This document shows positions 7,090-34,324 of a stretch of DNA of 64,000 nucleotides, piece by piece. Numbering within the stretch: the first letter of the stretch is position 1; each line of letters starts with the position of its first letter. The notes under the pieces were generated by a model, which was given only the letters and a program-made list of their open reading frames with translations, was not told the DNA's origin and searched no databases. This DNA comes from Hamadaea flava. Lineage in GTDB: Bacteria > Actinomycetota > Actinomycetes > Mycobacteriales > Micromonosporaceae. The position numbers and the translations under genes are program-made. The stretch lies in assembly GCF_024172085.1 (NCBI RefSeq), contig NZ_JAMZDZ010000001.1, positions 2,914,001 to 2,978,000 on the forward strand. Direction: 5' to 3'.

Positions 7090-8928
7090 ATGGACACTGC
7101 TGACACGCTTGCCGCTCAATGCGCGAAGACCGCTGCCGACCAGACCATCCCCGCTCTCCTGCACCGCAACGCCACCGAGTACGCCGACCGGCCCGCGCTG
7201 ACCACACTCGACCGTGACGACACCCGTACCTGGGCGGAGCTGCGCGAAGAGGTCGCCGAACTGTCCGGCGGCCTGGCCGAGATCGGGTTGGCGCCCGGCG
7301 GCCACATGCTGATCATGATGTCCAGCCGGCCGGAACACTGGCTGATCGACCTCGGCGCGGTGCACCTTGGCGCCGTCCCCGCGACGGTCTACCCGACGCT
7401 GAGCACCGATCAGCTGCGCTACCTGGCCGGGCACTGCAACGCCCAGGTGCTCGTGCTCGAAGGCGCGGCCGAGCTGGCCCGCTGGCGTTCGATCCTGCCG
7501 GACCTGCCCAACCTGCGCCGCATCGTGCTGGTCGACGAGACCGACCCCGGCGACACCACCGTCGAGACCGTGCAGCTGGCCCAGCTGCGTACCCGCGGCC
7601 GGGCCGCGCACCAGGCCGATCCGGGCGCCTTCGAACGACGGTGGCGCGAGATCCGGCCCGAGCAGCCGGTGACACTGCTGTACACGTCGGGGACGACCGG
7701 CGACCCTAAGGGCGTCGTGCTCAGCCACCACAACGTCATCTACCAAGCCGTGGTCCTCGAAGCCACCGTGACGGTTCCCGACCACGCGCCGACCGTGGCG
7801 TACCTGCCGCTGGCCCACATCGCCGAGCGGATGCTGGGCATCTACAACCCCATCTACCGCGCGGGCCACGTGACCATCTGCCCCGACGCCACCAAGCTCA
7901 TCCCGGCGCTGCGCACCGTCGGTCCCGCCTCGTTCTTCGGCGTACCGCGGATCTGGGAGAAGATGGCCGCCGGCGTACAGGCACAGGTGAGTGCCGCCGA
8001 ACCGGCGGTCAGGGAGGCATTCACCGCCGCGAGCGCGGTGACGCTGGAGGCGTACGAGTTGCGCGCCGCCGGCAAGCCGGTGCCCGAGGAGCTGGCCGCG
8101 CGTGTGGAGCAGGCCGAAGCCACGGTGCTGCGGCCCCTCCAGACGATGCTGGGCCTGCAGAGCATGGTCTGGGCCGGCAGCGGCGCGGCCCCGATCCCGG
8201 TCGACGTGCTGCGGTTCCTGGCCGGTCTCGGCGTCGACGTGCTGGAAGTCTGGGGCATGACCGAGACCACCGGCACCGCCACCATCAACACCCCCGGGCG
8301 CTTTCGCACGGGAACCGTCGGGCGACCCAACCCTGGCATGGAGGTACGCCTGGCGGAGGACGGCGAGATCCTGGTCCGTGGTCCGTTGGTGTGCGCCGGA
8401 TATCTGCGTGCGGACGGCACCGTGGCGGCAGTCACCGACGCGGACGGCTGGCTGGCCACCGGCGATGTGGGTGTCATGGACGAGGACGGCTTCCTCACCA
8501 TCACCGACCGCAAGAAGGAACTCATCATCACCTCGAGCGGCAAGAACATCTCGCCGGCTCGCATCGAAGGGCTGCTGCGCGCGCATCCGCTCATCGGTCA
8601 AGCCGTCGCGATCGGCGACCGGCGGCCCTACGTCACCGCGCTGATCGTGCTCGACGACGAGGTCGCACCGCTCTGGGCGCGCTCGCAGGGCATCGCCGAA
8701 CCCAACCTGCCCGGCCTGGCCGCCGACCCGATGTTGCTCGCCGAGATCCAAGCTGCCGTGAACGCCGCCAACGCCCAGCTGGCGCGACCCGAGCAGGTCA
8801 AGTCCTTCCGGGTGCTGCCGTCGAGCTGGACGGCCGAGACGGGCGAGCTGACGCCGACGCTGAAGCTGCGCCGCCGAATCATCGTCGACCGGTACAGCGA
8901 GAACATCGACACGCTCTACGACGCTTAG
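7090..8928 (+). CDS. long-chain acyl-CoA synthetase (AMP-forming), FadD15-like
   Basis: 612-residue ANL-superfamily ligase that activates a carboxylic acid to its CoA thioester through an acyl-AMP. The phosphate-binding loop YTSGTTGDPKGV starts at residue 198. WGMTETTGTATIN is motif A5, and TDRKKELIITSSGKNISP is the hinge and A8 region. A long insert (VREAFTAASAVTLEAYELRA) is typical of the long-chain FAA1/FadD15 branch. The ATG at 7090 has AAGGAG seven bases upstream; the TTG at 7075 is less likely. It faces the acyl-CoA dehydrogenase operon convergently. In this island it is the likely CoA-activating step for acids made from oligo-isoprenoid aldehydes, which is an inference. Confidence 0.92.
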   Translation: MDTADTLAAQCAKTAADQTIPALLHRNATEYADRPALTTLDRDDTRTWAELREEVAELSGGLAEIGLAPGGHMLIMMSSRPEHWLIDLGAVHLGAVPATVYPTLSTDQLRYLAGHCNAQVLVLEGAAELARWRSILPDLPNLRRIVLVDETDPGDTTVETVQLAQLRTRGRAAHQADPGAFERRWREIRPEQPVTLLYTSGTTGDPKGVVLSHHNVIYQAVVLEATVTVPDHAPTVAYLPLAHIAERMLGIYNPIYRAGHVTICPDATKLIPALRTVGPASFFGVPRIWEKMAAGVQAQVSAAEPAVREAFTAASAVTLEAYELRAAGKPVPEELAARVEQAEATVLRPLQTMLGLQSMVWAGSGAAPIPVDVLRFLAGLGVDVLEVWGMTETTGTATINTPGRFRTGTVGRPNPGMEVRLAEDGEILVRGPLVCAGYLRADGTVAAVTDADGWLATGDVGVMDEDGFLTITDRKKELIITSSGKNISPARIEGLLRAHPLIGQAVAIGDRRPYVTALIVLDDEVAPLWARSQGIAEPNLPGLAADPMLLAEIQAAVNAANAQLARPEQVKSFRVLPSSWTAETGELTPTLKLRRRIIVDRYSENIDTLYDA

Positions 8929-9080
8929 CCCTCCCGCGCCATGGCTGGCCTCGCCGGCCACGGCGTTGTCGATCTCCGGAGGGCTGGACACCTTTCCGGG
9001 CCCCGGTTACGTGCGTGGCCCTCCGGAAGTCGCGGCTCGCCCCGCCCGCCGCGGCGGGATGTCGTCAGAGGAACGCGTGC

Positions 9081-9100
9081 GGGCCGGCTCGTGCCGGCCC
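9081..9100. terminator. bidirectional hairpin between convergent genes
   Basis: GGGCCGGC (9081-9088) pairs with GCCGGCCC (9093-9100) around TCGT. It lies in the 184-base gap between the convergent acyl-CoA synthetase and acyl-CoA dehydrogenase genes. A second, wider inverted repeat (CCGGAGGGC and GCCCTCCGG, near 8980-9025) occupies the same gap. Confidence 0.6.
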
Positions 9101-9112
9101 CGTGGCGCAGGG

Positions 9113-10246
9113 TCAGAGGCCGAGCGACCGGCCGATCACTTCTTTCATGATCTCCGTGGTGCCGCCGTAGATCGTCTGCACCCGAGCGTCCAAGTACGCC
9201 TTGGCCACCGGGTACTCCCGCATGTAGCCGTAGCCGCCGTGCAACTGCAGGCAGCGGTCCACGGTGCGCTTCTGCAGTTCGGTGCACCACCACTTCGCCA
9301 TCGCCGCAGTCTCCGCGGTGAGCGTGGATTCCACCAGGCACCGGTCGACGAACACCCGGCCGAGGCGCAGCTCGGTGGCGATCTCGGCTAGGACGAACCG
9401 GTTGTGCTGGAAACTGCCGATCGGACGGCCGAAGGCTTGGCGCTCCTTACAGTAGGCGAGGGTCTGCTCGAACACCGTCTCGGCCCCCGCGAGCGCCGCG
9501 ACGGCGATCGACAGCCGTTCGTAGGGCAGGTTGCGCATCAGGTACGCGAAGCCCTGGCCCTCGACGCCGAGGAGGTTGGCGGCCGGTACGCGTACGTCGG
9601 AGAAGAACAGCTCGGCCGTGTCCTGCGCCTTCTGCCCGATCTTGTCGAGGTTCCGGCCGCGCTCGAACCCGGGTGTGTCCCGTTCGACGACCAGCAGGCT
9701 GATCCCCCGATGCCCCGCTGCGGGATCGGTACGGGCCACCACGATCACCAGATCGGCCAGGATTCCGTTGCTGATGAACGTCTTCTGCCCGTTGAGGACG
9801 TAGCTGTCGCCGTCGCGTACCGCGGTGGTGGTGATGCCTTGCAGGTCGCTGCCGGCACCGGGTTCGGACATGGCGATCGCCGTGATGAGCTCGCCCGAGC
9901 AGAAGCCCGGCAGCCACCGCTGCTTCTGCTCGTCCGTGGTCAGATCCGTGAGGTACGGCCCGATGATGTCGTTGTGCAGGCCGAACGCCGGGCCGCTCGC
10001 GCCCGCCCGAGCCAACTCCTCGGTGAGGACGGCGTTGAAACGCTGGTCGACCACCCCGCCGCCGCCGTACCGCTCGTCGACGAAGAAGCCCAGCAGACCG
10101 GCGGCACCGGCGGCCCGCCAGACGCTGCGGTCGACTACTCCCTCGGTCTCCCAGCGATCGTGATGCGGGGTGATCTCCTTGTCGATGAAGGCACGCACCA
10201 GTTCGGCGAACGCGAGGTGGTCGGCGGTGAAGATGTCGCGGTTCAT
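9113..10246 (-). CDS. acyl-CoA dehydrogenase
   Basis: 377-residue flavoprotein that introduces the alpha,beta double bond into an acyl-CoA. AMSEPGAGSDLQGI and GQKTFISNG are the FAD and substrate-binding signatures; LQLHGGYGYMREYP and IYGGTTEIMKE end the protein. The usual MCAD glutamate position in the last motif is glycine here. The glutamate in YERLSIAV lies where isovaleryl-CoA dehydrogenase carries its catalytic base, hinting at a branched-chain substrate. The ATG overlaps the stop of the upstream gene by four bases (10243-10246), so translation is coupled. It is the last gene of a four-gene operon with the racemase and the hydratase. Confidence 0.92.
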   Translation of the reverse strand: MNRDIFTADHLAFAELVRAFIDKEITPHHDRWETEGVVDRSVWRAAGAAGLLGFFVDERYGGGGVVDQRFNAVLTEELARAGASGPAFGLHNDIIGPYLTDLTTDEQKQRWLPGFCSGELITAIAMSEPGAGSDLQGITTTAVRDGDSYVLNGQKTFISNGILADLVIVVARTDPAAGHRGISLLVVERDTPGFERGRNLDKIGQKAQDTAELFFSDVRVPAANLLGVEGQGFAYLMRNLPYERLSIAVAALAGAETVFEQTLAYCKERQAFGRPIGSFQHNRFVLAEIATELRLGRVFVDRCLVESTLTAETAAMAKWWCTELQKRTVDRCLQLHGGYGYMREYPVAKAYLDARVQTIYGGTTEIMKEVIGRSLGL

Positions 10247-11271
10247 CGGGCCATGTCCTTCACTGCTGCGATGAGACGCCGTGGGTCGGTCCCCAGCGGC
10301 GTGACGTTGAGGATCGTTACTCCGGCGTCGCGATAGGCCTGTACGCGGTCGCGTACGTAGCTCTCCGGGCCGATCAGGCTGGCGCGTTCCAGCAGGTCCG
10401 CCGGAACCGCGGCGGCGGCCTCGGCTTTGTGGCCGGCCAAGTAGAGATCCTGGATGCGGTCGGCCTCGGCAGCGTAGCCGTAGCGGCACAGCAGGTCGTG
10501 GTAGAAGTTGCGGCCCTTGGCCCCCATGCCGCCGACGTACAGGGCGATCAGCGGCCGGGCTAGGTCGCGCAGGCCGGTCACATCCGGGCCGATGGCCAGT
10601 GGACCGCCCGCGACGACCTCCAGCGGCCCGAGATCGGCGGACCGCTTACGCCCGCCTGCCGCCAGGGCCGAGCCCCAGACGTCGACCGCGCGCTCGGGAT
10701 CGTAGAGGAACGGCAGCCATCCGTCGGCCAGCTCGGCGGTCATCTGGACGTTCTTGTCACCGAGACTCGCCACGTAGATCGGGATGCGGTCCCGGACGGG
10801 GTGCGTGAGGATCTTCAGCGGTTTGCCGAGTCCAGTGCCTTCCCCCTTGGTCAGCGGCAGCTGGTAGATGCCGTCGTTGACCAGCGTCTCGCGTCGCCAC
10901 ACCTGCCGGCAGATCCGGATCACCTCACGGGTCCGCGCCAGCGGCCGGTCGTACGCGACGCCGTGCCAGCCCTCGATCACCTGTGGCCCCGACGCGCCGA
11001 TGCCGAGGATGGCGCGACCGCCCGACATCGCGTCCAAACCGGACGCCGTCTGCGCGAGCAGTGCCGGGGTGCGGGAGTAGATCGGCAGGATGGCCGAGCC
11101 GATCTGCATCCGGGTGGTCTTCGCCGCGAGGTAGCCCATGATGGTCGGGGCATCGAAGCCGTAGGCCTCCGACACCCAGACGACGTCGAGGCCGTCCTGC
11201 TCCCAAGCGGCCACTTCGTCCGCGCCGCCCCGGGGGTCCGTGGCGTACGCCAGTGGTGTCGCGATCCGCAT
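10243..11271 (-). CDS. F420-dependent LLM-class oxidoreductase
   Basis: 342-residue luciferase-like TIM-barrel protein. The N-terminus MRIATPLAYATDP, a VWVSEAYGFDAPTIMGYLA segment and LGIGASGPQVIEGWHG are characteristic of F420-dependent oxidoreductases related to glucose-6-phosphate dehydrogenase and methylene-H4MPT reductase. The reaction is unknown. Its start codon overlaps the racemase stop by one base (TGATG at 11269-11273), so it is part of the same operon. A reductase acting on an unsaturated isoprenoid acyl-CoA would fill a step otherwise missing from the island, but that is only a suggestion. Confidence 0.88.
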   Translation of the reverse strand: MRIATPLAYATDPRGGADEVAAWEQDGLDVVWVSEAYGFDAPTIMGYLAAKTTRMQIGSAILPIYSRTPALLAQTASGLDAMSGGRAILGIGASGPQVIEGWHGVAYDRPLARTREVIRICRQVWRRETLVNDGIYQLPLTKGEGTGLGKPLKILTHPVRDRIPIYVASLGDKNVQMTAELADGWLPFLYDPERAVDVWGSALAAGGRKRSADLGPLEVVAGGPLAIGPDVTGLRDLARPLIALYVGGMGAKGRNFYHDLLCRYGYAAEADRIQDLYLAGHKAEAAAAVPADLLERASLIGPESYVRDRVQAYRDAGVTILNVTPLGTDPRRLIAAVKDMAR

Positions 11272-12428
11272 CAGTGCGCTCCTGGTGTCTGGCTGACGGC
11301 GCCGTTGCCCAACCAGCGCGCTGAGTGTGTGCCGAGGCCCCAGTCGGCGAGCACGGCTTCGGTGTCCGCCCCTGGCATCGGCGGGCGGCCGCCGATCGTC
11401 CCCGGTGTCTGCGACAAGCGCGGTGCCACCGCTGGCTGGCGTACGCCGAACCGGTCCTCGAACGTCCCCCGTGCCACCAGGTGCGGATGGTGCTGTGCTT
11501 CGGCGAGCGACAACACCGGTGCCACACAGGCGTCGGTGCCTTCGAAGACTTTGGTCCACTCGTCGCGGGTGCGTTCGGCGAAGACCGCCGCGAACCGCGT
11601 ACGCAGCACCGGCCAGCCGGAGATGTCGTGCTGGGCCGGCAGCTCCGCGTCGGCCAGTCCGAGCAGCCGGATCAACTCGGCGTAGAACTGCGGTTCCAGC
11701 GCGCCGACCGCCATGTGCCCGCCGTCGGCGGTGGCGTAGACGTCGTAGAACGGCGCGCCGCCGTCGAGCAGATTGCGGCCGCGCTCGGCCTGCCAGGCCC
11801 CGCCAGCCAGCATTCCGGTGAACAGCGTGGTGAGGTGGGCCGTCCCGTCGACGATGGCGGCGTCGACGACCTGCCCCCGGCCGGTCGTCCGCGCCACGTG
11901 CAGGGCCGCGAGGCAGCCGACGACCAGGTACAGCGACCCGCCGCCGAAGTCGCCGACGAGGTTGAGCGGGATCTGCGGCGGGCCGCCCGCGCGGCCGATC
12001 GGATGCAGCGCCCCGGCGACGGCGATGTAGCCGATGTCGTGACCGGCGGCACGGGCCAGCGGCCCGTCCTGTCCCCAGCCGGTCATCCGCCCGTAGACCA
12101 GGCCCGGATTGCGTTCCAGCACGGTCTGCGGCCCGATCCCGAGACGTTCGGCGACCCCCGGCCGCCAGCCCTCGATCAGGATCGCGACACGATCGGCCAG
12201 CTCCAGGACCACCTCGGCGCCGTCGGGATGCTTGAGGTCCACGACGACCGACCGCTTGCCCCGGTTGAGCAGGTCCGCCCGCGGATCACCGGCCGGCAGC
12301 GCGCCCGGCTCCGGCCGGTCGACGCGGACGACGTCGGCGCCCAGGTCGGCCAGCAGCATCGCCGCGAACGGACCCGGGCCGATCCCGGCGAGTTCCAGGA
12401 CCCGGACTCCGGTCAGCGGGCCGCTCAT
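11271..12428 (-). CDS. mcr: alpha-methylacyl-CoA racemase (CaiB/BaiF family)
   Basis: 385-residue family III CoA-transferase fold enzyme that interconverts (2R)- and (2S)-2-methylacyl-CoA, needed because acyl-CoA dehydrogenases accept only the S form. The catalytic residues known from the Mycobacterium tuberculosis enzyme (H126, D156, E241) appear here as H130 in AAGHDIGYIA, D160 in LVGDFGGGS and E245 in GALEPQFY, all shifted by exactly four. That makes a racemase call much safer than a generic CoA-transferase call. The ATG at 12428 overlaps the hydratase stop by four bases. An Mcr has been implicated in rubber catabolism in Gordonia polyisoprenivorans VH2, matching the Lcp gene in this island. 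Confidence 0.93.
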   Translation of the reverse strand: MSGPLTGVRVLELAGIGPGPFAAMLLADLGADVVRVDRPEPGALPAGDPRADLLNRGKRSVVVDLKHPDGAEVVLELADRVAILIEGWRPGVAERLGIGPQTVLERNPGLVYGRMTGWGQDGPLARAAGHDIGYIAVAGALHPIGRAGGPPQIPLNLVGDFGGGSLYLVVGCLAALHVARTTGRGQVVDAAIVDGTAHLTTLFTGMLAGGAWQAERGRNLLDGGAPFYDVYATADGGHMAVGALEPQFYAELIRLLGLADAELPAQHDISGWPVLRTRFAAVFAERTRDEWTKVFEGTDACVAPVLSLAEAQHHPHLVARGTFEDRFGVRQPAVAPRLSQTPGTIGGRPPMPGADTEAVLADWGLGTHSARWLGNGAVSQTPGAH

Positions 12429-13246
12429 GAGCCGGACCTCGCCGCGAAGCGGGGCGTACGCCCCTCGGCCAGGCTCGCCAGCGCCTCGCCGAAGTCTTCC
12501 CCGGCCAGGGAATCGGTCATGAGCCGGGTAGCGTCGGCCGCTGCGACGGCGGCCCCGGTCTCCAGCCCCGACCACACCTGCTGCCGGATCACCGCCATGG
12601 ACGCCGGCGAGCAGGACGCGGCCAGCTCGGCGGCGTACGCTTGTGCCTCGGCCAGCACCTCGTCGCGTGGGAGCACTCGTTGCACCAGTCCGATCCGCAG
12701 CGCCTCCGCCGCATCGATCTTGCGGCCGGACACCAGCAGATCCAGCGCGTTGCCCACGCCGACCAGCCGGGGCAGCAGCCAGGCGCTGCCGTATTCGGCG
12801 ATCAGGCCGAGCCGGCTGAACGCGGTCGCCAGGCGAGCCTCCGCCGCCAGGAACCGGATGTCGGCGTACAGGGCGTGGACCAGGCCGAGGCCGGCCGCTC
12901 CGCCGTTGATCGCGGCGACGATCGGGGTGCCCAGCGTCATCGGCAGATGCGGTTCGAAACCGAACTCGTTCATCAGCTGATCGCGGTTGCCGCCGTCGAG
13001 CAGCGCGTGCAACGACTCCGGGTCGGCGCCCGAGCAGAACCAGTCGCCCGCGCCGGTGACGACGATCGCGCGTACCGCCGGATCTGCGTCGGCGGCCAGC
13101 AACGCCGCGTAGTAGGTGCGGAACATGTCCAGCGTCATCGCGTTCCGCCGATCGGGCCGGTCGAACCAGATCGTGCGTACGCCGGCGTGGGTGGCGGCCC
13201 GCAGACCGCTTCCGGCCGGTTCGGCCGCCGGCAGGGATATGGTCAT
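12425..13246 (-). CDS. enoyl-CoA hydratase/isomerase
   Basis: 273-residue crotonase-fold protein, first gene of the operon running down to 9113. WFDRPDRRNAMTLDMF and VVTGAGDWFCSGAD form the CoA-binding region and AAINGGAAGLGLVHALYADI the oxyanion-hole strand. Of the two glutamates of classical hydratases, the first lies in a GLVHALYADI context without Glu, while the second region reads RLGLIAEYGSAWLLPRLVG. It may therefore be an isomerase or another crotonase rather than a standard hydratase. Start ATG at 13246; the 43-base gap to the divergent GntR gene holds the shared control region. Confidence 0.87.
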   Translation of the reverse strand: MTISLPAAEPAGSGLRAATHAGVRTIWFDRPDRRNAMTLDMFRTYYAALLAADADPAVRAIVVTGAGDWFCSGADPESLHALLDGGNRDQLMNEFGFEPHLPMTLGTPIVAAINGGAAGLGLVHALYADIRFLAAEARLATAFSRLGLIAEYGSAWLLPRLVGVGNALDLLVSGRKIDAAEALRIGLVQRVLPRDEVLAEAQAYAAELAASCSPASMAVIRQQVWSGLETGAAVAAADATRLMTDSLAGEDFGEALASLAEGRTPRFAARSGS

Positions 13247-13260
13247 CGGCGCATCCTTAC

Positions 13261-13284
13261 GACATTTGACATTTGATACTCTTA
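13261..13284 (+). promoter_or_regulatory. GntR-type operator over a leaderless divergent promoter
   Basis: The 24-base box beginning GACATTTGACATTTGA matches the box at 15460-15483 at 19 of 24 positions (19 of the first 22). It contains TTGACA (13267-13272 region) and GATACT (13275-13280), a good -10 for a transcript starting at or near the GTG at 13290, so the regulator mRNA is probably leaderless. The box lies between the divergent hydratase and GntR starts and would let the regulator control both. Confidence 0.7.
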
Positions 13285-13289
13285 CGTCC

Positions 13290-13982
13290 GTGGCAGAGCG
13301 GAGCAAGGGTCAGGACGTTTCATATCCGCAGCTGTCCGAGACGGTGGCGAGCCTGCTGCGCGACCGGATCATGTCCGGCCAGCTGCGCCCCGGCGAGCGG
13401 ATCCGGCTCGAAGAGGTGGCCCAGGAGACCGGGCTCAGCATCACCCCGGTACGCGAGGCGCTGCTGATGCTGCGCGCGGAGGACATGGTCGAGCTGCAGC
13501 CGCGTCGCGGCCACGTGGTCGCACCACTGTCCCGGCAGGACATCCTGGACGTGTTCGCTCTGCAGGGCGACATCGCCGGCGAACTCGCCTCCCGGGTCGC
13601 CGCCACGATCACCCAGGACCAGCTCGACGACCTGCGGCAGCAGCACGAGCGGTTGCGCCGCGCCGCTCAGGCCCGGCAGATCAGCCGGGTCGAGCAGCTC
13701 GAGTTCGAGTTCCACCGCAGCATCAACCGGCTGGCCGACGCGCGCAAGCTGTCCTGGCTGCTGCGCACGGTGACGCGCTACACGCCGTCGCGGTTCTACG
13801 CGGCCAACCCGGAATGGCGGGCCGCCATGATCGCCGACCACGAGGCGCTGCTGATCGCACTCGAGGCCCACGACCCGGCGGCCGTCAAGCCGATCATGGC
13901 CCGCCACTTCACCGACGGCGCCGAGCGATTGGTCAAGCATCTCGACGGGCTGGGTGTGTGGAGCGACCGTGCCGCCACCTGA
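13290..13982 (+). CDS. GntR-family regulator, FCD (FadR-like) subfamily
   Basis: 230-residue repressor-type protein. The winged helix-turn-helix occupies about residues 15-75 (VASLLRDRIMSGQLRPGERI, then TGLSITPVREALLML), and an all-helical FCD ligand domain follows with FEFHRSINRLADA and a late IMARHFTDGAERLV histidine. GTG 13290 is chosen because a -10 sequence lies the right distance away for a leaderless start. The gene is divergent from the racemase operon and overlaps the 3' end of the aldehyde dehydrogenase gene by 50 bases. Near-identical boxes at 13261 and 15460 suggest it controls both flanking units, probably responding to an acyl-CoA or acid intermediate. Confidence 0.9.
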   Translation: MAERSKGQDVSYPQLSETVASLLRDRIMSGQLRPGERIRLEEVAQETGLSITPVREALLMLRAEDMVELQPRRGHVVAPLSRQDILDVFALQGDIAGELASRVAATITQDQLDDLRQQHERLRRAAQARQISRVEQLEFEFHRSINRLADARKLSWLLRTVTRYTPSRFYAANPEWRAAMIADHEALLIALEAHDPAAVKPIMARHFTDGAERLVKHLDGLGVWSDRAAT

Positions 13983-15447: not shown

Positions 15448-15459
15448 CGGCGGCCTCCT

Positions 15460-26146: not shown

Positions 26147-27241
26147 TCAGCCGAAGGTCAGCACGGGTTTGACCGCCGTGCCGTCGCGCATCCCGGCCAC
26201 GGCGGCGGCGATGTCCTCGAAGGCGAACGTCGTGACGAGGCGATCCACGGGGAACAGGCCGCGCTGGTAGAGACCGACCAGCTCGGGGATGAAGCGCGCC
26301 GGGTCCACATCCCCCTCGATCACCCCGTGTACCCGGACGCCCTTGGTGAGCAGGCTCATCACGTCGAACTCGACCTTGGCACCGATGCCGAGCAGGGCGA
26401 GTTCACCCCTCGGCCGCAGGGCGGCGACGGCCTGCCGGAGCACGTCCGACCGGCTGGTGGTGTCCACGACGTACTGCGCGCCGCCACGGGTCAGATCGAG
26501 CACAGTGGAGACGAAGTCGCCGTCCGCTGTTGGATCCAGGACGGCCGTGGCGCCCAACTCGGTGGCCAGCGCGCGGCGCGATGCGACCGGCTCGACGACG
26601 ATGACTGGATCGCAGCCCACCACGACGGCGGCCAGGAGCGTACTGAGCCCCACCCCGCCGGCCCCGATCACCATCAGCGAGCTGCCCGGCTCGGGACGCA
26701 GCCGGTTGACCACCGTCCCGGCGCCCGTCTGCACGCCACAGCCCAACGGCGCGGCCACGGCAGGCGGCAACTCGGCGGGCACCCGGACCGTGTTGCGCGC
26801 GTGGGTGATCGCATACGTCGCGAAGCTCGACTGGCCGAAGAACGCGCCGAACACGGGCGCGCCGTCGCGCGACAGCGGAGTGCTGCCGTCGGCCCGGCCC
26901 CCGGCGGTGTTCAAGATCCGCTGAGAGTGGCAGTAGGCCGGGTGGCCGGCCACGCACTGCTCACACCGGCCACAGCTGTCGAAGGTCAGGCAGACGTGGT
27001 CACCCACCGCGAGACCCGCCACCTGCTCGCCGACCGCCTCGACCACACCGGCCCCCTCATGCCCGAAGACCATCGGGGTACGCCGTTGCGGCCAGCCGGC
27101 CTGCATACCGAGGTCGGTGTGGCACACACCCGCGGCGGTCATCCGGACCAGGACCTCGTCGGGCCGGGGCGCTTCCAGGTCCACCGCCTGAACGACGAAG
27201 GGCCCGCCCGGATTCTCCGTGATGGCAGCTCGGATCTGCAT
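26147..27241 (-). CDS. zinc-dependent alcohol dehydrogenase (aryl/NDMA-type MDR)
   Basis: 364-residue medium-chain dehydrogenase. Catalytic zinc ligands lie in GVCHTDLG and GHEGAGVVEAVG, and the structural zinc lobe is CGRCEQCVAGHPAYC. The Rossmann motif is VIGAGGVGLSTLLAAV. It resembles class III-like and benzyl-alcohol dehydrogenases, and acts on primary alcohols or the reverse. It lies upstream of lcp on the same strand and 25 bases after the DUF4334 gene, so DUF4334-ADH are probably co-transcribed. It could balance alcohol and aldehyde forms of isoprenoid oligomers, though the substrate is unproven. Confidence 0.9.
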   Translation of the reverse strand: MQIRAAITENPGGPFVVQAVDLEAPRPDEVLVRMTAAGVCHTDLGMQAGWPQRRTPMVFGHEGAGVVEAVGEQVAGLAVGDHVCLTFDSCGRCEQCVAGHPAYCHSQRILNTAGGRADGSTPLSRDGAPVFGAFFGQSSFATYAITHARNTVRVPAELPPAVAAPLGCGVQTGAGTVVNRLRPEPGSSLMVIGAGGVGLSTLLAAVVVGCDPVIVVEPVASRRALATELGATAVLDPTADGDFVSTVLDLTRGGAQYVVDTTSRSDVLRQAVAALRPRGELALLGIGAKVEFDVMSLLTKGVRVHGVIEGDVDPARFIPELVGLYQRGLFPVDRLVTTFAFEDIAAAVAGMRDGTAVKPVLTFG

Positions 27242-27266
27242 GATCGACTCCTCCGCACGGCCGGGC

Positions 27267-27737
27267 TCAGGCGACCCGCTCGAGCACGAAGTAGAAGAAC
27301 GGGCCGTCGTCGGCGAAGTGCTTGCCGTTCATGATCCCCATGAGCGTACGCTCGTCGACCCGCTTGAAATGGTCGAAGACCGGCTGGCCGTCGTACACCA
27401 TCGTCGCGGTCGACTCACCCCGGAACTCGACCGTCCACAAGCTGGCCTCGCCCTTGCCCAGCGCCTTGTTGGAGTACAACTCGCCGTCGTCGTCCCGGCA
27501 GATCAGCGGCTTGACGTCCTTGCGGCTCACGAAGGTCTTGCCGAACCACCGTGCCTGGTCCAGCTGCCCGTTGATCGGGTGCCCGGTGTCGAACTCGCCG
27601 CCCTTCCACTCGCCGAAGATCTCCTCGGGACGGACCGTGTCCAACGCGGCCCAGATCTCGTCGAGTTCGGCGGCCGAGACCCGGCCGTCCTGTCGGCGCA
27701 GTTCGGCGAAACGGGCCCGAGCCTTGTTCGCGTCCAT
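27267..27737 (-). CDS. DUF4334 / GXWXG-domain protein
   Basis: 156-residue cytoplasmic protein with the GxWxG signature (FGEWKGGEFDTGHP, about residues 39-53) followed by a DUF4334-type beta-rich domain ending in GPFFYFVLERV. Proteins of this type recur beside actinobacterial lipid and alcohol-oxidation genes; a lipocalin-like ligand-binding role is often suggested but the function is not established. ATG 27737 is preceded by GAGAGGA. Its upstream region contains the 11-base periodic repeats shared with the divergent DUF2236 gene. Confidence 0.82.
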   Translation of the reverse strand: MDANKARARFAELRRQDGRVSAAELDEIWAALDTVRPEEIFGEWKGGEFDTGHPINGQLDQARWFGKTFVSRKDVKPLICRDDDGELYSNKALGKGEASLWTVEFRGESTATMVYDGQPVFDHFKRVDERTLMGIMNGKHFADDGPFFYFVLERVA

Positions 27738-27748
27738 GACGGCGTCCT

Positions 27749-27808
27749 CTCGCTGGCGTCTCGCAGATGTCTCGCTGGCGTCTCACTGATGTCTCGCTGG
27801 CGCAGCGG
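27749..27808. repeat. helically phased 11-bp direct repeats between divergent genes
   Basis: On the minus strand GAGAC recurs every 11 bases (GAGACATCAGT, GAGACGCCAGC, GAGACATCTGC, GAGACGCCAGC), equal to two and a half copies of a 22-base unit at 27749-27770, 27771-27792 and 27793 onward. One repeat per helical turn in a divergent promoter region is how SARP or PhoP-type direct-repeat operators look. Confidence 0.7.
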
Positions 27809-27910
27809 CACTCGAAGCCGGCGGCGCCGGATCCTGGGGCAGAGGATAGACAGCCGACGGCCCTTGACACGAGCGGCGTCGTTGCCGACCCTGCTTGCGA
27901 GGTGGTCGCG

Positions 27911-28819
27911 ATGGCTGGTGGCGGTCGGTACCGATGGTTGCGTCGCATCGAGGCGCTCGATCCCCTGCACGACCATCACGAGATCTACCGGATCTCGACA
28001 GGCTTCGAGTTCCCGTTCGACTATCAGCGGGCGCTGGAGTTCGCGCTGTTCCGCACGTACTGCGTACCGAGCATCTCGGCGCTGCTCGACGCGACCGGCG
28101 AGTTCCGGCTCCGCCCGCAACAGCGGTACGACGACACCGCCTTGCTGATGGCCGAGATGGTCGAGCACGGGTACGACTCGCCACGTGGCAAGCAGGCGCT
28201 GCGCGCGGTCAACCGGGCCCACTCCGCGTACGCGATCTCCAACGACGACATGCGCTATGTGCTGTCCACCTTCGTCTACGAGCCGATCGACTGGCTGGGC
28301 CGCTTCGGCTGGCGACCGCTGCACGAGCACGAGCGGCTGGCCGCGTTCCACTACTACCGCGCGGTCGGTGCTCGGATGGGCATCCACGACGTACCGGACG
28401 ACTTCGACGCGTTCTGGGACTTCAAGCGCGAGTACGAGCGCACGAAGTTCCGGTATGACCCGACCAACGAGCGCGTCGGCACGTACACCCTGGACCTGTT
28501 CGCGTCCTGGTATCCCGCGCCGTTGCGCCGCGCCGCCCGGCTCGGAGTGTTGGCGCTGCTACCCGTCGAACTGCGTACCGCGTTCGGCTTTCCGGCCGCG
28601 CCGCGCTGGGTGTCCGCGACGGTCAACGGCAGCTTGCGTACGCGGGCCTCTGCGGTTCGGCTGCTCCCACCGCGTACCAAGAGCAAACTGACCCGGGCAC
28701 CGCGAAACCGCACGTATCCCGGCTATCCCGAGGGATACCAGCCCGCGGACCTTGGCGCTCCCCCGCCATCGCCCGACCTCGACCCGAGCTGGCTGGCCCG
28801 CCCGGCGGACCGCCGGTGA
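27911..28819 (+). CDS. second DUF2236/MpaB-family (Lcp-superfamily) protein
   Basis: 302 residues, no signal peptide, so cytoplasmic unlike Lcp. Homology to Lcp is visible around the heme pocket: R72-x-x-x-T76 (RYDDT) matches the R158..T162 pair of the Lcp at 24732, H104 in NRAHSAYAISNDDM matches the proximal heme ligand, and ISNDDMRYVL aligns with ISNGDILITF. The distal lysine of Lcp is replaced by aspartate (D75), so the closed Lys-heme state described for Lcp cannot form. ATG 27911 has GAGGTGG upstream. A heme-dependent oxygenase or peroxygenase acting inside the cell on oligo-isoprenoids is possible; substrate unknown. It is divergent from the DUF4334 gene. Confidence 0.8.
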   Translation: MAGGGRYRWLRRIEALDPLHDHHEIYRISTGFEFPFDYQRALEFALFRTYCVPSISALLDATGEFRLRPQQRYDDTALLMAEMVEHGYDSPRGKQALRAVNRAHSAYAISNDDMRYVLSTFVYEPIDWLGRFGWRPLHEHERLAAFHYYRAVGARMGIHDVPDDFDAFWDFKREYERTKFRYDPTNERVGTYTLDLFASWYPAPLRRAARLGVLALLPVELRTAFGFPAAPRWVSATVNGSLRTRASAVRLLPPRTKSKLTRAPRNRTYPGYPEGYQPADLGAPPPSPDLDPSWLARPADRR

Positions 28820-28823
28820 CCGC

Positions 28824-29363
28824 CTAGCCGGCGAGTTCCACCGCCACGGCGACGGTGCTCGTGCTGGCCGCCTTCGCCGCGAGGGCGCCGAGGTCGAGTC
28901 GGTGGCCGCCGCGATCGGCGACCGCTCCAGCGGCGAGCCGCAGGTCGGCGACGGGCGAGCCGAACGCGGCCGACGCGGCCTCCAGCAGGCGCCGACGCGC
29001 CACCGCGACAGCGACTCGCACGGTCGTCACCTGGTGGTACGCCGCATCGGGCAGCGCATCGCCCAGCGCGACGTCGACCCGCTCCCGCGGCACGGACAGC
29101 TCCTGCGTGATCAGCGTGACCGACGTTGCGAGCGCCTCCCTCGAGGTGGCTCGCGGAACCACGAGCGTCACCGTCCCGTCCGGGTGGACCTCGATCGAGA
29201 TCAGCCGGGACGCCGGCAGCGCCACCGCGGTCCTGATGTCGTTGAGGCCGAGCAGGTCCTCGGTGGTAGCTGTGGGCGTCGCCGCCAGGTCGGCTGCGGT
29301 GACGAGGATCGGGGCGGCCAGCACGTACCCACGGAATCGTCGCCGGGCGACGGCTTCCACCAT
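28824..29363 (-). pseudogene. truncated OxiB-like molybdopterin aldehyde dehydrogenase subunit
   Basis: The 179-residue frame from ATG 29363 matches only the first quarter of the roughly 690-residue large subunits of isoquinoline-1-oxidoreductase-type aldehyde dehydrogenases. A twin-arginine-like N-terminus (ARRRFRGYVLAAPILV) is followed by LLGLNDIRTAVALPASRLIS, VHPDGTVTLVVPRA, then RVDVALGDALPD and GALAAKAAS, and a TAG stop. The MGQG-type motif expected after the LVVPRA strand is changed to TSREALATS. In Streptomyces sp. K30 oxiA and oxiB lie beside lcp and oxidise its aldehyde products. Here no OxiA [2Fe-2S] subunit and no catalytic C-terminal domains remain, so this is probably a decayed relic. 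Confidence 0.78.
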
Positions 29364-29742
29364 GGCCGTGGTCACCGGGGTGGGCCGGGCACGACATCGC
29401 GCCCGCCGAGTGGCTCCACGCTTCGCTCCTCCTGCGATCGGCCCGCCGAGGCGAGCATCGATGTGTTTGCACGCGCGCATCGCATGACAGCACACCGGCT
29501 CGGTGACCACAAGGCCCGCCCGGTTCCCGACTGTCCGGTCGGTCGGTACCAGCCGATGAACCTCCTCGACAAAGTCGAGGTTTCCAGATGAGAGCGAACA
29601 CACTGCTCAGCAGTCCATCGCAAGTGGACAGACATGCGCCGATCATGCGGGCATCTAGCCAACCGCGCGGTCGGTCGCGTACCTTGAAGAACTGATCGGT
29701 CGACGGCACGCGCGAAGACCGGAGCGACCAGGAGGCCCCGAG
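29364..29742. other. 379-base intergenic stretch with hairpin
   Basis: No gene is supported between the OxiB relic and the next acyl-CoA dehydrogenase. CCTCGAC (29564-29570) pairs with GTCGAGG (29574-29580) around AAA. The minus strand was checked for an OxiA-like cysteine motif and none was found. The promoter for the gene at 29743 should lie between about 29640 and 29730; GGTCGG and CGGTCG words cluster there (29668-29705). Confidence 0.5.
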
Positions 29743-30912
29743 GTGAACGCGAACGGTACGCAGAGCCTCTCCGCGCGGGTCCGCGAGTTCATCGACCATC
29801 GGGTGATCCCGGTCGAACACGCCGTCGAGACCGATCCCCAAATACTGGTGAAACTTCGCCGAGCGGCTCGCGAAGCGGGCGTGTTCGCCCCGTCGGCCCC
29901 CACCGAGTACGGCGGCCTGGGCCTGTCGATGCTCGGCCAGACCGACGTGCTGGAGGAGGCCGGACGGAGTCTGCCCGGCCCGCTCGTGCTGAACTGCGCC
30001 GCCCCCGACGAGGGCAACATGACGCTGCTGGAACACGTCGCCACACCCGCACAACGCGAGCAGTACCTTCGGCCGCTGGCCGCCGGCGACGTCCGTTCGG
30101 CGTTCGCCATGACCGAACCCGCCCCCGGTGCCGGGTCGGATCCCACCGCGCTCGCCACGTCCGCCGTACGTGACGGCGACGACTGGGTGATCGACGGCCA
30201 GAAGTGGTTCATCACTGGCGCCGACGGAGCGGGCTTCTTCATCGTGATGGCACGCACCGGCGCGGACGCCGCGACGATGTTCCTCGTCGACGCCGGCAAC
30301 CCCGGTCTGACGGTCGGCCGGCACATCCCGACCATCGACGCCGGGTTCACCGGCGGGCATTGCGAAGTGACGCTGGAGCGGTGTCGCGTTCGGTCGTCGG
30401 CGGTGCTGGGCGAGGTCGATCGCGGCTTCGCCAACGCCCAGGTCCGGCTCGGACCCGCTCGCCTGACGCACTGCATGCGCTGGCTCGGCGTCGCCCGCCG
30501 CGCGCACGAGATCATGCTCGGCTACGTCGTCGACCGGGAACTGTTCGGCAGCCGGCTCGCCGATCTCGGCCTCGCACAGCACCTCATCGCCGACAACGAG
30601 ATCGACCTCGCGGCGTCCCGGGCGCTGATCCGCACCGCCGCCGTGGCGCTCGACCAGGGCAGCCGGGCGAACCAGGAGACCTCGATCGCCAAGACGTTCG
30701 TCTCGGAGGCCGTCGGCCGCGTCGTCGACCGCTCCGTCCAATTGTGCGGCGCGCAGGGGGTCTCCCACGACCTGCCGCTGGCGCGGTTCCTGGCCGAGGT
30801 ACGCCCATTCCGCATCTACGACGGCGCGTCCGAGGCGCACCGCTGGGCGGTGGCCCGTCGTGCGGTCCGGCGATACGAGGCGGCCCGACCCGGTAAGCGG
30901 TCGCATGACTGA
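29743..30912 (+). CDS. acyl-CoA dehydrogenase, ACAD10/11-like
   Basis: 389-residue flavoprotein. It carries AMTEPAPGAGSDPTAL, IDGQKWFITGADGAGFF, VQLCGAQGVSHDLPLARF and ends RIYDGASEAHRWAVAR. The last motif resembles the xxDGPDEVHR end of ACAD10/ACAD11 and related FadE proteins rather than classical enzymes with YEG. GTG start with AGGAGG upstream. The next gene encodes an APH-fold phosphotransferase and overlaps it by eight bases; in animals these two activities are fused in ACAD10/11, which handle 4-hydroxyacyl-CoAs. A similar pair here could remove hydroxylated or branched intermediates. Confidence 0.88.
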   Translation: MNANGTQSLSARVREFIDHRVIPVEHAVETDPQILVKLRRAAREAGVFAPSAPTEYGGLGLSMLGQTDVLEEAGRSLPGPLVLNCAAPDEGNMTLLEHVATPAQREQYLRPLAAGDVRSAFAMTEPAPGAGSDPTALATSAVRDGDDWVIDGQKWFITGADGAGFFIVMARTGADAATMFLVDAGNPGLTVGRHIPTIDAGFTGGHCEVTLERCRVRSSAVLGEVDRGFANAQVRLGPARLTHCMRWLGVARRAHEIMLGYVVDRELFGSRLADLGLAQHLIADNEIDLAASRALIRTAAVALDQGSRANQETSIAKTFVSEAVGRVVDRSVQLCGAQGVSHDLPLARFLAEVRPFRIYDGASEAHRWAVARRAVRRYEAARPGKRSHD

Positions 30913-31975
30913 CGAGGCAGACCTGCCAGGTCTGCCCTTCGATCGGCTGGCGGCGTACCTGGGCGAACATCTGTCTGACGTGGATTCGGCGGCACCATGG
31001 CAGGCCCAGTCGCTCGCGGGCGGCCGCAGTAATCTCACTTACCGCATCGACCAAGGCACCCGGTCCTGGGTGCTGCGCCGGCCGCCGCTCGGCCATGTGA
31101 TGCCCAAGGCACACGACATGGCCCGCGAGTATCGCGTCCTGTGTGGCCTCGACCGTACCGCGGTGCCGAGCGCCCGGCCGTATCTGCTCTGCGAGGACGC
31201 GTCCGTCATCGGTGCGCCCTTCCTCGTCATGGAGCACGTCGAGGGCGTCGTGTTGTCGTCGGCGGCGGACTGCGCCGGCCTTTCCGCCGAGCGTGCCGCG
31301 GCGATCTCCGAAGTCCTCGTCCGGACGCTGGCCACGCTGCACGATGCCGACCTCACCGGCACCGGCCTGGAGACCTTCGGGCAACCGGCCGGCTACCTCA
31401 GCCGCCAGGCCGCGCTGTGGACCGCCCAATGGGAGCGGACCAAGGTACGAGACCTGCCCGGATTCGACCGGCTCGCCCGCTGGCTGGCCGACCGCACCGA
31501 CGCGTACGCCGACCGGCCGGCCACACTCGTGCACGGCGACTACCGCCTCGACAACCTCATCCTCGCGCCCGACACCGCCCGCGTACGCGCAGTGCTGGAC
31601 TGGGAGATGGCCACCCGCGGCGATCCGGTGTGCGACCTCGCGCTCCTGCTCGTCTACTGGACCGAGCCCGGCGACACCTTGCGACGACGCGTACCGGTGG
31701 CGCTCGGGGTGACCGACCGGCCGGGGTTCGGCGATCGCGCCGCCGTGCTGGGCGCGTACACCGCTCTCCGTCCGGTCGACGGCGACCACCTCGACGTATG
31801 CCTGGCGCTGACCTGTCTCAAGCTCGCGGTCATCATGGAGTCGATCTACTTCCGCCATCTCCAGGGCCAGCACCTGGGATCGGACGCGGCCGGCATGGCA
31901 GAGGCGTCCGCCGCGCTCGTCGAGCTGGGCCTGCGCGTCGCCGACGGACAGGGTGTCGCCGCGTTGGGCTCGTGA
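30905..31975 (+). CDS. APH-fold phosphotransferase, partner of the ACAD10/11-like dehydrogenase
   Basis: 356-residue aminoglycoside-phosphotransferase-fold protein. GGRSNLTYRI is the nucleotide-binding loop, LVHGDYRLDNLIL the catalytic HGDxxxxN segment and VLDWEMATRGDP the metal-binding D. The fold equals the kinase half of ACAD10/11, proposed to phosphorylate 4-hydroxyacyl-CoA before elimination by the dehydrogenase half. The ATGACTGA overlap with the preceding stop (30905-30912) indicates tight co-translation, supporting a joint pathway. Not an antibiotic-resistance gene on this evidence. Confidence 0.88.
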   Translation: MTDEADLPGLPFDRLAAYLGEHLSDVDSAAPWQAQSLAGGRSNLTYRIDQGTRSWVLRRPPLGHVMPKAHDMAREYRVLCGLDRTAVPSARPYLLCEDASVIGAPFLVMEHVEGVVLSSAADCAGLSAERAAAISEVLVRTLATLHDADLTGTGLETFGQPAGYLSRQAALWTAQWERTKVRDLPGFDRLARWLADRTDAYADRPATLVHGDYRLDNLILAPDTARVRAVLDWEMATRGDPVCDLALLLVYWTEPGDTLRRRVPVALGVTDRPGFGDRAAVLGAYTALRPVDGDHLDVCLALTCLKLAVIMESIYFRHLQGQHLGSDAAGMAEASAALVELGLRVADGQGVAALGS

Positions 31976-32044
31976 CGAGACCTGATTCGCCGCCCGACGG
32001 CGCGGCCTACCATGGCACGTCGGAGCCCAGTTCGAGGAGATCAC

Positions 32045-32680
32045 ATGACCGTTTCACGACCGGCTCGCCCCGCGTCGCGTACGCGTCGGCCGCGCACCGC
32101 GGACGACCGGCGTACCGAGATCGTCCTGAGGGCCTCCGAGCTGTTCGACGACGTCGGCTATCACCTGACCTCGATGGACGACATCGCCCGGGCGGTGGGG
32201 CTCGCCAAGCCGACGCTGTACCACTACTTCCCGAGCAAGGACAGCATCCTCCTCGCGATCCACGAGGAGTTCATCTCCATCCTGCTCGGCCGGCAGCGAC
32301 AGCGGCTGGAGCGGGACGACCGCGACGTCTCCGATCTGCTGCTCGACGTCATGGTGGACATCTGCGACCTGATGCGTACGCACCGCGGTTATGTCCGGGT
32401 CTTCTTCGAGCATCATCGCGAACTGCCGGACGCCTCCCGGCGGGAAGCCCTGGCGGCGCGCGACGCGTACTTCGACTCCGTCCGGGGGCTGTTCGAGCGC
32501 GGTCGCACCGAAGGCTTGGTCACCGGCGATCCGATGCTCAGCTCGATGGCGCTGTTCGGCATGTGCAACTGGGCATACCAGTGGTACGACCCGCGCGGGA
32601 CACTCACTTCGCTGGACGTCGCCCGCTACTTCCATCGGGTTCTGCTGCACGGCGTCGGAGCGACTCCCAGCCGGCCATAG
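32045..32680 (+). CDS. TetR-family regulator (KstR2-like)
   Basis: 211-residue TetR protein. The HTH occupies about residues 20-68 (ASELFDDVGYHLTSMDDIAR, then KPTLYHYFPSKDSIL), with a helical C-terminal domain rich in charged residues. The sequence style is that of the KstR2 group that controls acyl-CoA catabolism in actinobacteria, but its ligand is unknown. ATG 32045 has GAGGAG seven bases upstream and is preferred to GTG/ATG options at 32012. It follows the kinase gene by 69 bases on the same strand. Its 3' end overlaps a convergent TetR gene by 77 bases. Confidence 0.88.
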   Translation: MTVSRPARPASRTRRPRTADDRRTEIVLRASELFDDVGYHLTSMDDIARAVGLAKPTLYHYFPSKDSILLAIHEEFISILLGRQRQRLERDDRDVSDLLLDVMVDICDLMRTHRGYVRVFFEHHRELPDASRREALAARDAYFDSVRGLFERGRTEGLVTGDPMLSSMALFGMCNWAYQWYDPRGTLTSLDVARYFHRVLLHGVGATPSRP

Positions 32681-33239: not shown

Positions 33240-33253
33240 GCCTGAACCCCTAG

Positions 33254-33329
33254 ATATTTGTCGTTCGATCCAGAATACCTTGACTCGGCGCGGTGAGCGC
33301 TGCCAATATTTTTTGGTCGTTCGAAAAAT
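33254..33329 (+). promoter_or_regulatory. two TetR operator copies and promoter upstream of quinone oxidoreductase
   Basis: GTCGTTCGA occurs at 33260-33268 (in TATTTGTCGTTCGATCC) and at 33316-33324 (in TTTTTGGTCGTTCGAAAAA). The core TCGTTCGA is a near-perfect dyad. TTGACT (33280-33285) and CAATAT (33304-33309) form a promoter with 18-base spacing, with the second box over the likely start point, so binding would block transcription. Confidence 0.65.
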
Positions 33330-33346
33330 AATCGAAGGAGTCTCGT

Positions 33347-34324
33347 ATGCGCGCCCTCCAGCAGACCTCGCTCCGCGGTCCCCAGGACTTGCGACTCATC
33401 ACCGATGCCACCAAGCCGGAGCCGGGACCGGGCGAGGTGCTGATCCGCGTGACCGCCGCCGGGATCAACTTCGCCGATCTGTCTCAGGCGTACGGCGCCT
33501 TCGCCAACGGCCCGCAGCCGCCGTACCTGGCCGGTTTCGAGGCTGCCGGCCAGGTCGTCGCGGTCGGCAGCGCGGTGATCGGGCTGACCCCAGGCACCCA
33601 TGTGGTAGGGACGAATGTCTTCGGACTCGGCGCCTTCGCCGAGTACATGTCCCTACCAGCCGGGGCCGTGCTGCCGGTGCCGGAAGGTTGGCCGGACGAG
33701 CATGCGTTGGGGCTGACCGTGAATTACCCGACCGCCATGGCCGCGCTGCGGCCACTGGGCGGGCTCGCTGCCGGGCAGACGGTGCTGATCCATGCCGCAG
33801 CCGGAGCCACCGGACAAGCGGCGATGATCATGGCCAAACACTACGGCGCCACGGTGATCGCCGCCGCGTCGCCGGACAAGCACCACCTGCTCGATAACGC
33901 GGACCACGTCGTGAACTCGCGCAGCCAAGACCTCGCCGCCCACGTGCTAGGGCTGACCGATGGGGCGGGCGTCGACCTGGTGCTCGAATCGGCCGGTGGC
34001 ACCACCTTCGAGGCCAGTCTGGCGTCGGCGAAACGAGTCACCGGCCGCGTCGTGGTCATCGGCAGCGCGGGCGGCGACGCGACGCTGAGCAACTGGGATC
34101 TGATCTACCGGCACCAGGTCCACGTGATCGGCTTCAACCTCGGCATCCTCATCCAAACCGCGCCGCACGTCTTCGGCGAGGTCATGGGCGAACTGTTCGC
34201 GCTGATCGCCACCGGGGTCCTGCGACCCACGCAGCCGACGATGTTCGACCTGGCCGACGGCCCCAAAGCGCTTGCCGAACTCCAGGCCCGAACGACCGTC
34301 GGCAAACTGGCTCTACGCCCGTAG
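33347..34324 (+). CDS. NADPH:quinone oxidoreductase-like MDR enzyme
   Basis: 325-residue zinc-independent medium-chain reductase. GINFADLSQAYGAF, AGFEAAGQVVAVGSAV and the nucleotide-binding loop HAAAGATGQAAMIMAKHYGA are quinone-oxidoreductase signatures, and no zinc-binding cysteines are present. It reduces quinones or alpha,beta-unsaturated carbonyls. AAGGAG precedes the ATG. It is probably repressed by the divergent TetR. In the island it could reduce enals or enones formed during oligo-isoprenoid breakdown, but general electrophile defence fits equally. Confidence 0.9.
   Translation: MRALQQTSLRGPQDLRLITDATKPEPGPGEVLIRVTAAGINFADLSQAYGAFANGPQPPYLAGFEAAGQVVAVGSAVIGLTPGTHVVGTNVFGLGAFAEYMSLPAGAVLPVPEGWPDEHALGLTVNYPTAMAALRPLGGLAAGQTVLIHAAAGATGQAAMIMAKHYGATVIAAASPDKHHLLDNADHVVNSRSQDLAAHVLGLTDGAGVDLVLESAGGTTFEASLASAKRVTGRVVVIGSAGGDATLSNWDLIYRHQVHVIGFNLGILIQTAPHVFGEVMGELFALIATGVLRPTQPTMFDLADGPKALAELQARTTVGKLALRP

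Follow-up and report, generated by a model that had tools for sequence, protein, structure and literature searches.

A probable horizontally exchanged rubber-utilisation island around lcp in Hamadaea flava

Does the DNA around a rubber oxygenase gene (lcp) in Hamadaea flava form a catabolic unit for polyisoprene, or has lcp joined a cluster that handles methyl-branched or isoprenoid acids in general? The question is raised by a stretch of 64,000 nucleotides (the window; positions 2,914,001 to 2,978,000 of the forward strand of NZ_JAMZDZ010000001.1, a single contig of 8.86 Mb), in which lcp is surrounded by regulators and genes of acyl-CoA metabolism, among them fadA and fadB. In the available text of two reports (PMC8538451, PMC9108482), the listed candidates for the steps after Lcp are drawn from many paralogues on the strength of their annotation. 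We regard a horizontally exchanged rubber-utilisation island, with coupled expression of lcp and fadAB, as the probable explanation of the whole locus. Genes were identified by sequence searches of Pfam, NCBIfam and the PDB, with starts judged by the fit of open reading frame (ORF) and domain only. The features that carry the argument are, in window coordinates:

24732..25949, minus strand: Lcp rubber oxygenase (PDB 5o1l, LcpK30, E 7.7e-113; twin-arginine-like start, by eye)
26037..26056, minus strand: LcpRB box TATGTTAATAGAAAATCACA, upstream of lcp (2 mismatches to the published S. coelicolor A3(2) box; 0 expected by chance)
23489..24703, plus strand: LcpRB-type double-TetR regulator (two TetR_N domains)
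22251..23441, plus strand: TetRa, double-TetR regulator, divergent from fadA (two TetR_N domains)
22094..22110, minus strand: operator-like element GTTAGGCTGAATTCGCA in the fadA promoter (fits GTTAR-N7-TCRCA)
20852..22072, minus strand: FadA thiolase (PDB 3svk E 1e-192; 4b3h FadA E 2e-187; NF006090 above cut-off)
18694..20850, start estimated, minus strand: FadB (PDB 4b3h, M. tuberculosis FadB, E 3e-260)
15523..16674, plus strand: acyl-CoA dehydrogenase 2, ACAD2 (Pfam, PDB)
13933..15495, minus strand: aldehyde dehydrogenase (ALDH), candidate for oligo-isoprene aldehyde oxidation (PF00171 1.5e-127)
13200..13982, start estimated, plus strand: GntR/FCD regulator (PF07729, PF00392)
12425..13200, start estimated, minus strand: enoyl-CoA hydratase, ECH (PF00378 3e-42)
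11271..12422, start estimated, minus strand: alpha-methylacyl-CoA racemase Mcr (PDB 9i2t/1x74 E ~1e-117)
10243..11268, start estimated, minus strand: F420-dependent LLM oxidoreductase, Rv3520c subfamily (TIGR03559 475 bits, above its cut-off of 335)
9113..10246, start estimated, minus strand: acyl-CoA dehydrogenase 1, ACAD1 (best PDB match 2pg0, then human LCAD 8w0t E 1e-115)
7090..8928, plus strand: acyl-CoA ligase FadD, FadD11-like (PF00501 6e-68; NF038343 520 bits, below its cut-off of 950; ORF opens at 7075)

The similarity of the window Lcp to LcpK30 is full-length (residues 2-403). The positions equivalent to the K30 active site are occupied by R158, K161, T162 and H192, which are invariant in the eight aligned Lcps including that of the window; K167 of the K30 enzyme is a residue that we take to belong to this site. 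R164, T168 and H198 are given as its active-site residues in the available part of PMC11169899. The Lcp of genome G370 (L097:1-1188) contains one in-frame TGA and was excluded from the alignment. By these sequence features the window protein is a K30-type latex clearing protein, and cleavage of polyisoprene is predicted. A search of the whole genome with it returns one match; with the broader PF09995 model there are four matches, of which the window holds two. Mcr is nearer to alpha-methylacyl-CoA racemases (E ~1e-117) than to the next family III CoA transferase family (2e-36). The enzyme classes that the sequence-only reading of this DNA had named between 7090 and 34324 are all present, as are its five regulators, comprising the GntR protein, two double-TetR and two single TetR proteins.

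Linkage of these genes to lcp is conserved in all ten other lcp-bearing genomes of three related genera (eight Micromonospora, G351 and G368). In each of them Lcp lies together with twelve core genes, encoding FadD, ACAD1, LLM, Mcr, ECH, GntR, ALDH, ACAD2, FadB, FadA, TetRa and LcpRB, and their order is equal apart from FadD, a conservation that chance does not explain. Identity to the window proteins throughout these ten relatives is 80-87% for FadD, whose position varies and which is only partly covered in G368, 87-93% for ACAD1, 88-92% for the LLM protein, 83-89% for Mcr and 84-90% for ALDH. The linkage to lcp is sharpest for ACAD2. At E <=1e-150 it occurs in 8 of 160 Micromonospora genomes, which are identical to the eight with lcp, and in none of the 152 lcp-less ones, a coincidence of 1/C(160,8) = 1e-13 when uncorrected for relatedness. 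The proposal of a catabolic unit packed around lcp is thereby supported, together with the promoter element shared by lcp and fadA that is described below; a block common in genomes lacking lcp, which was to speak against it, is not what Micromonospora displays. G250 was discarded as a candidate for an lcp-less Micromonospora carrying the block, as it has a close Mcr and otherwise only an acyl-CoA dehydrogenase at 26%. In G368 ACAD2 (L048 ~7.8-8.9 kb) matches in two pieces, with a possible frame break.

The edges of the island are defined by an empty site in an lcp-less congener, G002, whose contig C330 matches only window positions 1-6284 (87% DNA identity) and 32665-34452 (81%) when the whole window is aligned to the fetched part of the contig. 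Between both flanks C330 carries 1.36 kb of unrelated DNA. The island is thus delimited to window positions 6285..32664, about 26.4 kb. C330 was pinpointed by two DNA searches of three congeners, which covered the window outside 19001-33299. G002 is an 87% complete draft, yet both flanks stand on one contig; the empty site rests on this one congener. The catabolic block that the sequence-only reading had placed at 7090..34324 is real, and its limits shift: the island starts after 6284 and ends near 32664, and because the flanks nearly meet in G002 the last two genes of that span belong to the backbone. The genes at the right edge are:

32012..32680, plus strand: TetR regulator, the right edge of the island (PF00440, PF17932; 85% identity in G368)
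32604-33239, minus strand: TetR regulator, backbone (protein 85% identical beside the left flank in G002)
33347-34324, plus strand: quinone oxidoreductase, backbone (protein 81% identical beside the left flank in G002)

In G368, which belongs to another genus, the genes from FadD through the TetR at 32012 are present without the MpaB-family (MPAB) gene described below; the right-flank genes of the window are absent from the stretch fetched, beyond which lies the left flank of that island. The history of the block conflicts with that of its hosts. In the rpoB tree the sampled Micromonospora stand apart from G351/G368 and the window. Micromonospora is broken up both in the tree of the concatenated block and in that of LcpRB+Lcp, with the M. 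tulbaghiae group branching first, then the window, and the G351/G368 pair placed inside or beside the remaining Micromonospora. The block DNA of the window is as close to that of M. rubida (88% identity) as the window flanks are to those of the congener (87% and 81%). Two marks of a genomic island are thus found, a discrete insertion absent from one draft congener and a history in conflict with the rpoB tree. The window holds no tRNA gene, and no integrase family is seen among its scanned ORFs (Pfam), a scan that left short ORFs and edge repeats outside. A possible short ORF at ~6480-6900 (by eye) lies inside the island between its left edge and FadD and is unmatched at the empty site.

The association of lcp with the fad genes extends to genomes in which they are not adjacent. 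Among 66 Actinoplanes genomes, 25 have both lcp and an ortholog of the island FadB, two have lcp only, two FadB only and 37 neither (Fisher 1e-13). A Pagel-type dependent model is preferred over the independent one (likelihood ratio 38.9, p 7e-8), with ten parsimony changes each for lcp and FadB. This test employed a custom script with few random starts and an rpoB-only tree of 66 of the 67 Actinoplanes, G123 being dropped as no rpoB was found in it. A genome counted as FadB-positive at an identity of at least 65%, a cut set after the gap was visible, and as lcp-positive at E 1e-60, with E 1e-130 for Mcr as control. The closest Actinoplanes FadB orthologs are located elsewhere than lcp, and FadA, TetRa and FadD are adjacent to them in three modules of lcp-bearing genomes (G124, G100, G116); in G082 the FadB ortholog adjoins tandem lcp paralogues. 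Across the family (354 genomes) 44 have lcp and FadB, two lcp only, ten FadB only and 298 neither.

The promoters of lcp and fadA share a short element. A full-length LcpRB box (<=5 mismatches) lies within 300 bases upstream of lcp in 74 lcp genes of a wider survey, comprising the best 80 of 493 lcp loci, all named, with <=10 kb on each side (FadD rows of 26-30%, which are distant ligases, are uncounted). An LcpRB homologue is likewise close to lcp in 74 of these 80 loci, and the box is retained in all ten lcp-bearing relatives. It was previously reported from S. coelicolor and Actinoplanes sp. OR16, according to the available part of PMC7413915. The regulator beside lcp has the features of the LcpRB/ACTI_69510 type, namely two TetR domains, a position adjoining lcp and a box in the lcp promoter, and is assigned to it by these features. 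No other window gene has a full-length box at <=5 mismatches. The fadA element shares its plan with this box. GTTAR-N7-TCRCA is present in 16/16 fadA promoters when the fadA-TetRa gaps of several genera are aligned, and the window holds it twice, at fadA and at lcp, against 0.10 expected, with no third copy. Across 180 loci (3.52 Mb, picked around lcp or the block and including some genomes twice, so that site counts are non-independent) there are 114 sites, which are distributed as 78 at lcp, 26 at fadA, nine at LcpRB and one at FadD, with none elsewhere. The lcp sites comprise 67 labelled ones and 11 located ~80-106 bases from the end of a fetched half that stops immediately before the first base of lcp. 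One site labelled TetRa is also upstream of fadA, so sites with neither lcp nor fadA are those of LcpRB and FadD only. Two random sequences of equal size have two sites each, and spacings of 5, 6, 8 or 9 or swapped halves yield 0-4. TetRa is a paralogue of its LcpRB-type neighbour (38% identity), and either protein may bind the putative fadA element. The element is also found at fadA of the lcp-less genomes G148 and G119, which is compatible either with a lost lcp or with a wider role.

Several observations weigh against the reading of a coupled rubber island. The element was derived from the lcp and fadA promoters, so its hits at these two genes arise by construction; independent of that derivation are its absence from the remaining locus DNA and the sites at LcpRB and a ligase gene. 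Within the window only lcp and fadA bear it, hence most island genes show no sign of this control. LcpRB lies beside the main lcp in each of the 12 Actinoplanes neighbourhoods read and is the sole window gene there above 35%, and 72 of the best 80 named loci have no FadA of at least 70% inside the 10 kb. A 2,4-dienoyl-CoA reduction is expected as the double bonds of the chain come up, and the corresponding family (PF00724) is absent from the island, two such genes lying elsewhere in the genome. No uptake gene is seen among the scanned island ORFs (Pfam). In addition, lcp is without a match at E 1e-60 in ten of the 54 genomes that have a FadB ortholog, and Mcr, tried as a phylogenetic marker of lcp, fails in Actinoplanes, where it is uncorrelated with lcp (2/27 lcp-bearing against 10/40 lcp-less genomes, p 0.10). 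The last two points also favour an alternative that we consider unlikely, in which a general methyl-branched or isoprenoid acid cluster, serving terpenes, phytol or branched lipids, was joined later by lcp and LcpRB. It is favoured as well by the lcp-less G148 of the genus Catenuloplanes (L110-L111), which carries FadB-FadA-TetRa-FadD-ACAD1-Mcr-GntR, and by its congeners G009, G147 and G149, which keep such a block and lcp at separate places. The alternative is opposed by the absence of ACAD2 from all 152 lcp-less Micromonospora, by the gain and loss of FadB in correlation with an unlinked lcp, and by one element common to fadA and lcp. The lcp-less G376 (L108-L109) carries FadB-FadA-FadD-ACAD1-Mcr-GntR and an MPAB protein; the clusters of G148 and G376 may be sisters of the island that serve other isoprenoids.

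The remaining features of the island are:

16758..18689, start estimated, plus strand: gluconate-2-dh3-type domain and GMC oxidoreductase (PF13618, PF00732, PF05199)
26147..27241, minus strand: zinc alcohol dehydrogenase, ADH (PF08240, PF00107; TIGR03989 the best model, under its cut-off)
27267..27737, minus strand: GXWXG/DUF4334 protein (PF14231, PF14232)
27767..28819, plus strand: MPAB protein, not Lcp (PF09995 60 bits)
28824..29330, within ORF 28824-29603, minus strand: OxiB N-terminal fragment (residues 2-191 of 750 of Dactylosporangium OxiB, 56% identity)
29743..30912, plus strand: acyl-CoA dehydrogenase 3, ACAD3 (Pfam, NCBIfam)
30920..31975, ORF opens at 30860, plus strand: phosphotransferase-family protein, adjoining ACAD3 (PF01636 1e-49)

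The variable members are distributed among the ten other islands as GMC in 5/10, ADH with GXWXG in 5/10 and MPAB in 8/10. The MPAB protein was considered as a second Lcp and ruled out, its sole PDB match being trans-anethole oxygenase (E 2e-6); NCBIfam assigns no family to it or to Lcp. The GXWXG protein is predicted as a small beta-barrel (AF2 pLDDT 80), for which Foldseek gives 4mve (Tcur_1030) as best match and lipocalin-type proteins as weaker ones. With one clear fold match and weak lipocalin-type ones, a role as carrier of oligo-isoprenoids is a guess from the model. A GXWXG/DUF4334 gene lies <=10 kb from lcp in 16 of the best 80 named loci, often with ADH.

The OxiB fragment of the window has one TAG in the aligned range, and no further genome match is found at E 1e-10. 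This N-terminal quarter of OxiB likewise persists as a fragment in all eight lcp-bearing Micromonospora (e.g. L045:10132-10833), where it nowhere extends past residue 201 and has a stop in the aligned range in four. In the other four it has no stop; it may be a remnant or a small protein put to new use. G351 and G368 have no OxiB match at E 1e-10, and full oxiB is present in G156 and G124. An intact oxiB beside lcp, as in a K30-type operon, is thus not found here, oxiA being outside the search. The whole route to acetyl- and propionyl-CoA that the sequence-only reading had ascribed to the locus is incomplete, with OxiB reduced to a fragment, no PF00724 gene in the island and no uptake gene among the scanned ORFs. 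In Nocardia farcinica aldehyde oxidation is done by an ALDH, as stated in the available part of PMC9782182, and by analogy the ALDH of 10/10 islands is likely the natural substitute of OxiAB. Our guess for the dienoyl reductase is the F420-dependent LLM protein, which stands beside Mcr and ACAD1 in the window and in 10/10 relatives. That the locus is a relic losing function, as the OxiB fragment, the absence here of the second lcp that adjoins this fragment in the eight Micromonospora islands and the two pieces of ACAD2 in G368 might suggest, is barely credible: the window lcp is open with its active-site residues kept, no in-frame stop occurs in lcp, Mcr or FadB of the ten relatives or in ACAD2 of the eight Micromonospora, and all ten relatives retain the lcp box.

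Parts of the island resemble mycobacterial cholesterol catabolism. The Rv3520c gene sits in the mycobacterial cholesterol region, and the island LLM protein belongs to its subfamily; the acyl-CoA dehydrogenases, Mcr and the thiolase have a similar likeness, and the GMC protein matches a cholesterol-oxidase model far under its cut-off (56 vs 850 bits). A sterol side-chain cluster is nevertheless very improbable, given that ring-degradation families are absent from the scanned ORFs, that FadA scores higher against the FadAB-complex thiolase than against FadA5, the steroid thiolase (627 vs 226 bits), and that lcp is located inside the cluster.

For the rubber island the substrates, the order of steps and an induction by rubber are proposed as follows. 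Exported Lcp would cut poly(cis-1,4-isoprene) extracellularly into oligomers that carry an aldehyde at one end and a ketone at the other. The island ALDH would oxidise the aldehyde and FadD would activate the resulting acid, while Mcr would set the 2-methyl stereocentre before release of propionyl-CoA. Alternating turns of beta-oxidation, carried out by the acyl-CoA dehydrogenases, ECH, FadB and FadA, would yield acetyl-CoA and propionyl-CoA. The expression of lcp and fadAB would be coupled through the common operator-like element, read by the paralogues LcpRB and TetRa. A fuller version is offered tentatively and is itself rather doubtful: a mobile 26-kb rubber regulon in which lcp and fadAB stand under one operator class with paired two-headed TetRs, are gained and lost together even if distant, and travel between genera, with the LLM protein doing the dienoyl reduction and the GXWXG protein carrying oligo-isoprenoids.

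Packed catabolism around lcp is recurrent and not general, since many loci are poor in block genes. FadA of at least 70% is near lcp in eight of the best 80 named loci; six of the eight belong to the 57 loci from other families, in Streptomyces, Pseudofrankia and Parafrankia, where Mcr, ACAD1, FadB, ADH or GXWXG accompany it in varying sets. Several Streptomyces lcp loci have an LLM gene next to Mcr. Many loci, e.g. in Amycolatopsis, hold little beyond LcpRB, and no block gene lies near the more distant lcp of G056 (45%). The published systems, so far as their accessible text goes, share parts of this layout. The lcp2-lcp3 locus of Dactylosporangium sp. AC04546 has FadD, AcrR, thiolase, FadB, FadD, GMC, ACAD and TetR beside lcp (PMC8538451). 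In contrast to the island it contains a tandem pair of lcp genes together with oxiB and oxiA, Liv-type transport genes lying between, and the genes appear as a figure-legend list and are not handled as a unit there. The lcp2 locus of Streptomyces sp. AC04842 comprises mcr, TetR, a hypothetical protein, ADH, TetR, lcp and MpaB (PMC9108482), an arrangement that resembles our Streptomyces loci L182, L202, L208 and L216; unlike in the island, the legend does not list fadAB, and oxiA and oxiB are placed with another lcp. At lcp3 of Actinoplanes sp. OR16 the double helix-turn-helix TetR ACTI_69510 beside lcp binds the lcp promoter at a similar box, whereas no further known rubber genes are described near lcp3 and the term 'acyl-CoA' is absent from the main text as available (PMC7413915). 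The lcp-oxiBA locus of Streptomyces sp. K30 (PMC8235351, PMC9782182) has Lcp in common with the island, which keeps an OxiB fragment and, as its likely replacement, the ALDH. In the part of PMC8235351 available, lcp is also tabulated for four Micromonospora species. The sequence-only reading held that in most described loci lcp is accompanied by a regulator and oxiAB alone; this is too strong a statement, because the legends of PMC8538451 and PMC9108482 put CoA ligase, thiolase, FadB, acyl-CoA dehydrogenase or Mcr beside lcp. Parts of such layouts are thus already in print; as far as the open literature shows (subscription papers being outside the search), the boundaries, the transfer, the co-evolution and the shared lcp-fadA element are new. 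To the right of the island, window positions 43049-51670 encode a Golvesin-domain phosphoesterase, a GDSL lipase and BNR/laminin-G domain proteins, which are apparently not rubber-related.

Little is known of the steps after Lcp, and conserved linkage, co-evolution and the shared element narrow the candidates for them to about a dozen genes amenable to knock-out. With GTTAR-N7-TCRCA as a cheap probe the remaining rubber regulon could be sought in other actinobacteria, and the engineering of rubber-waste degradation could sensibly begin from a transferable unit.

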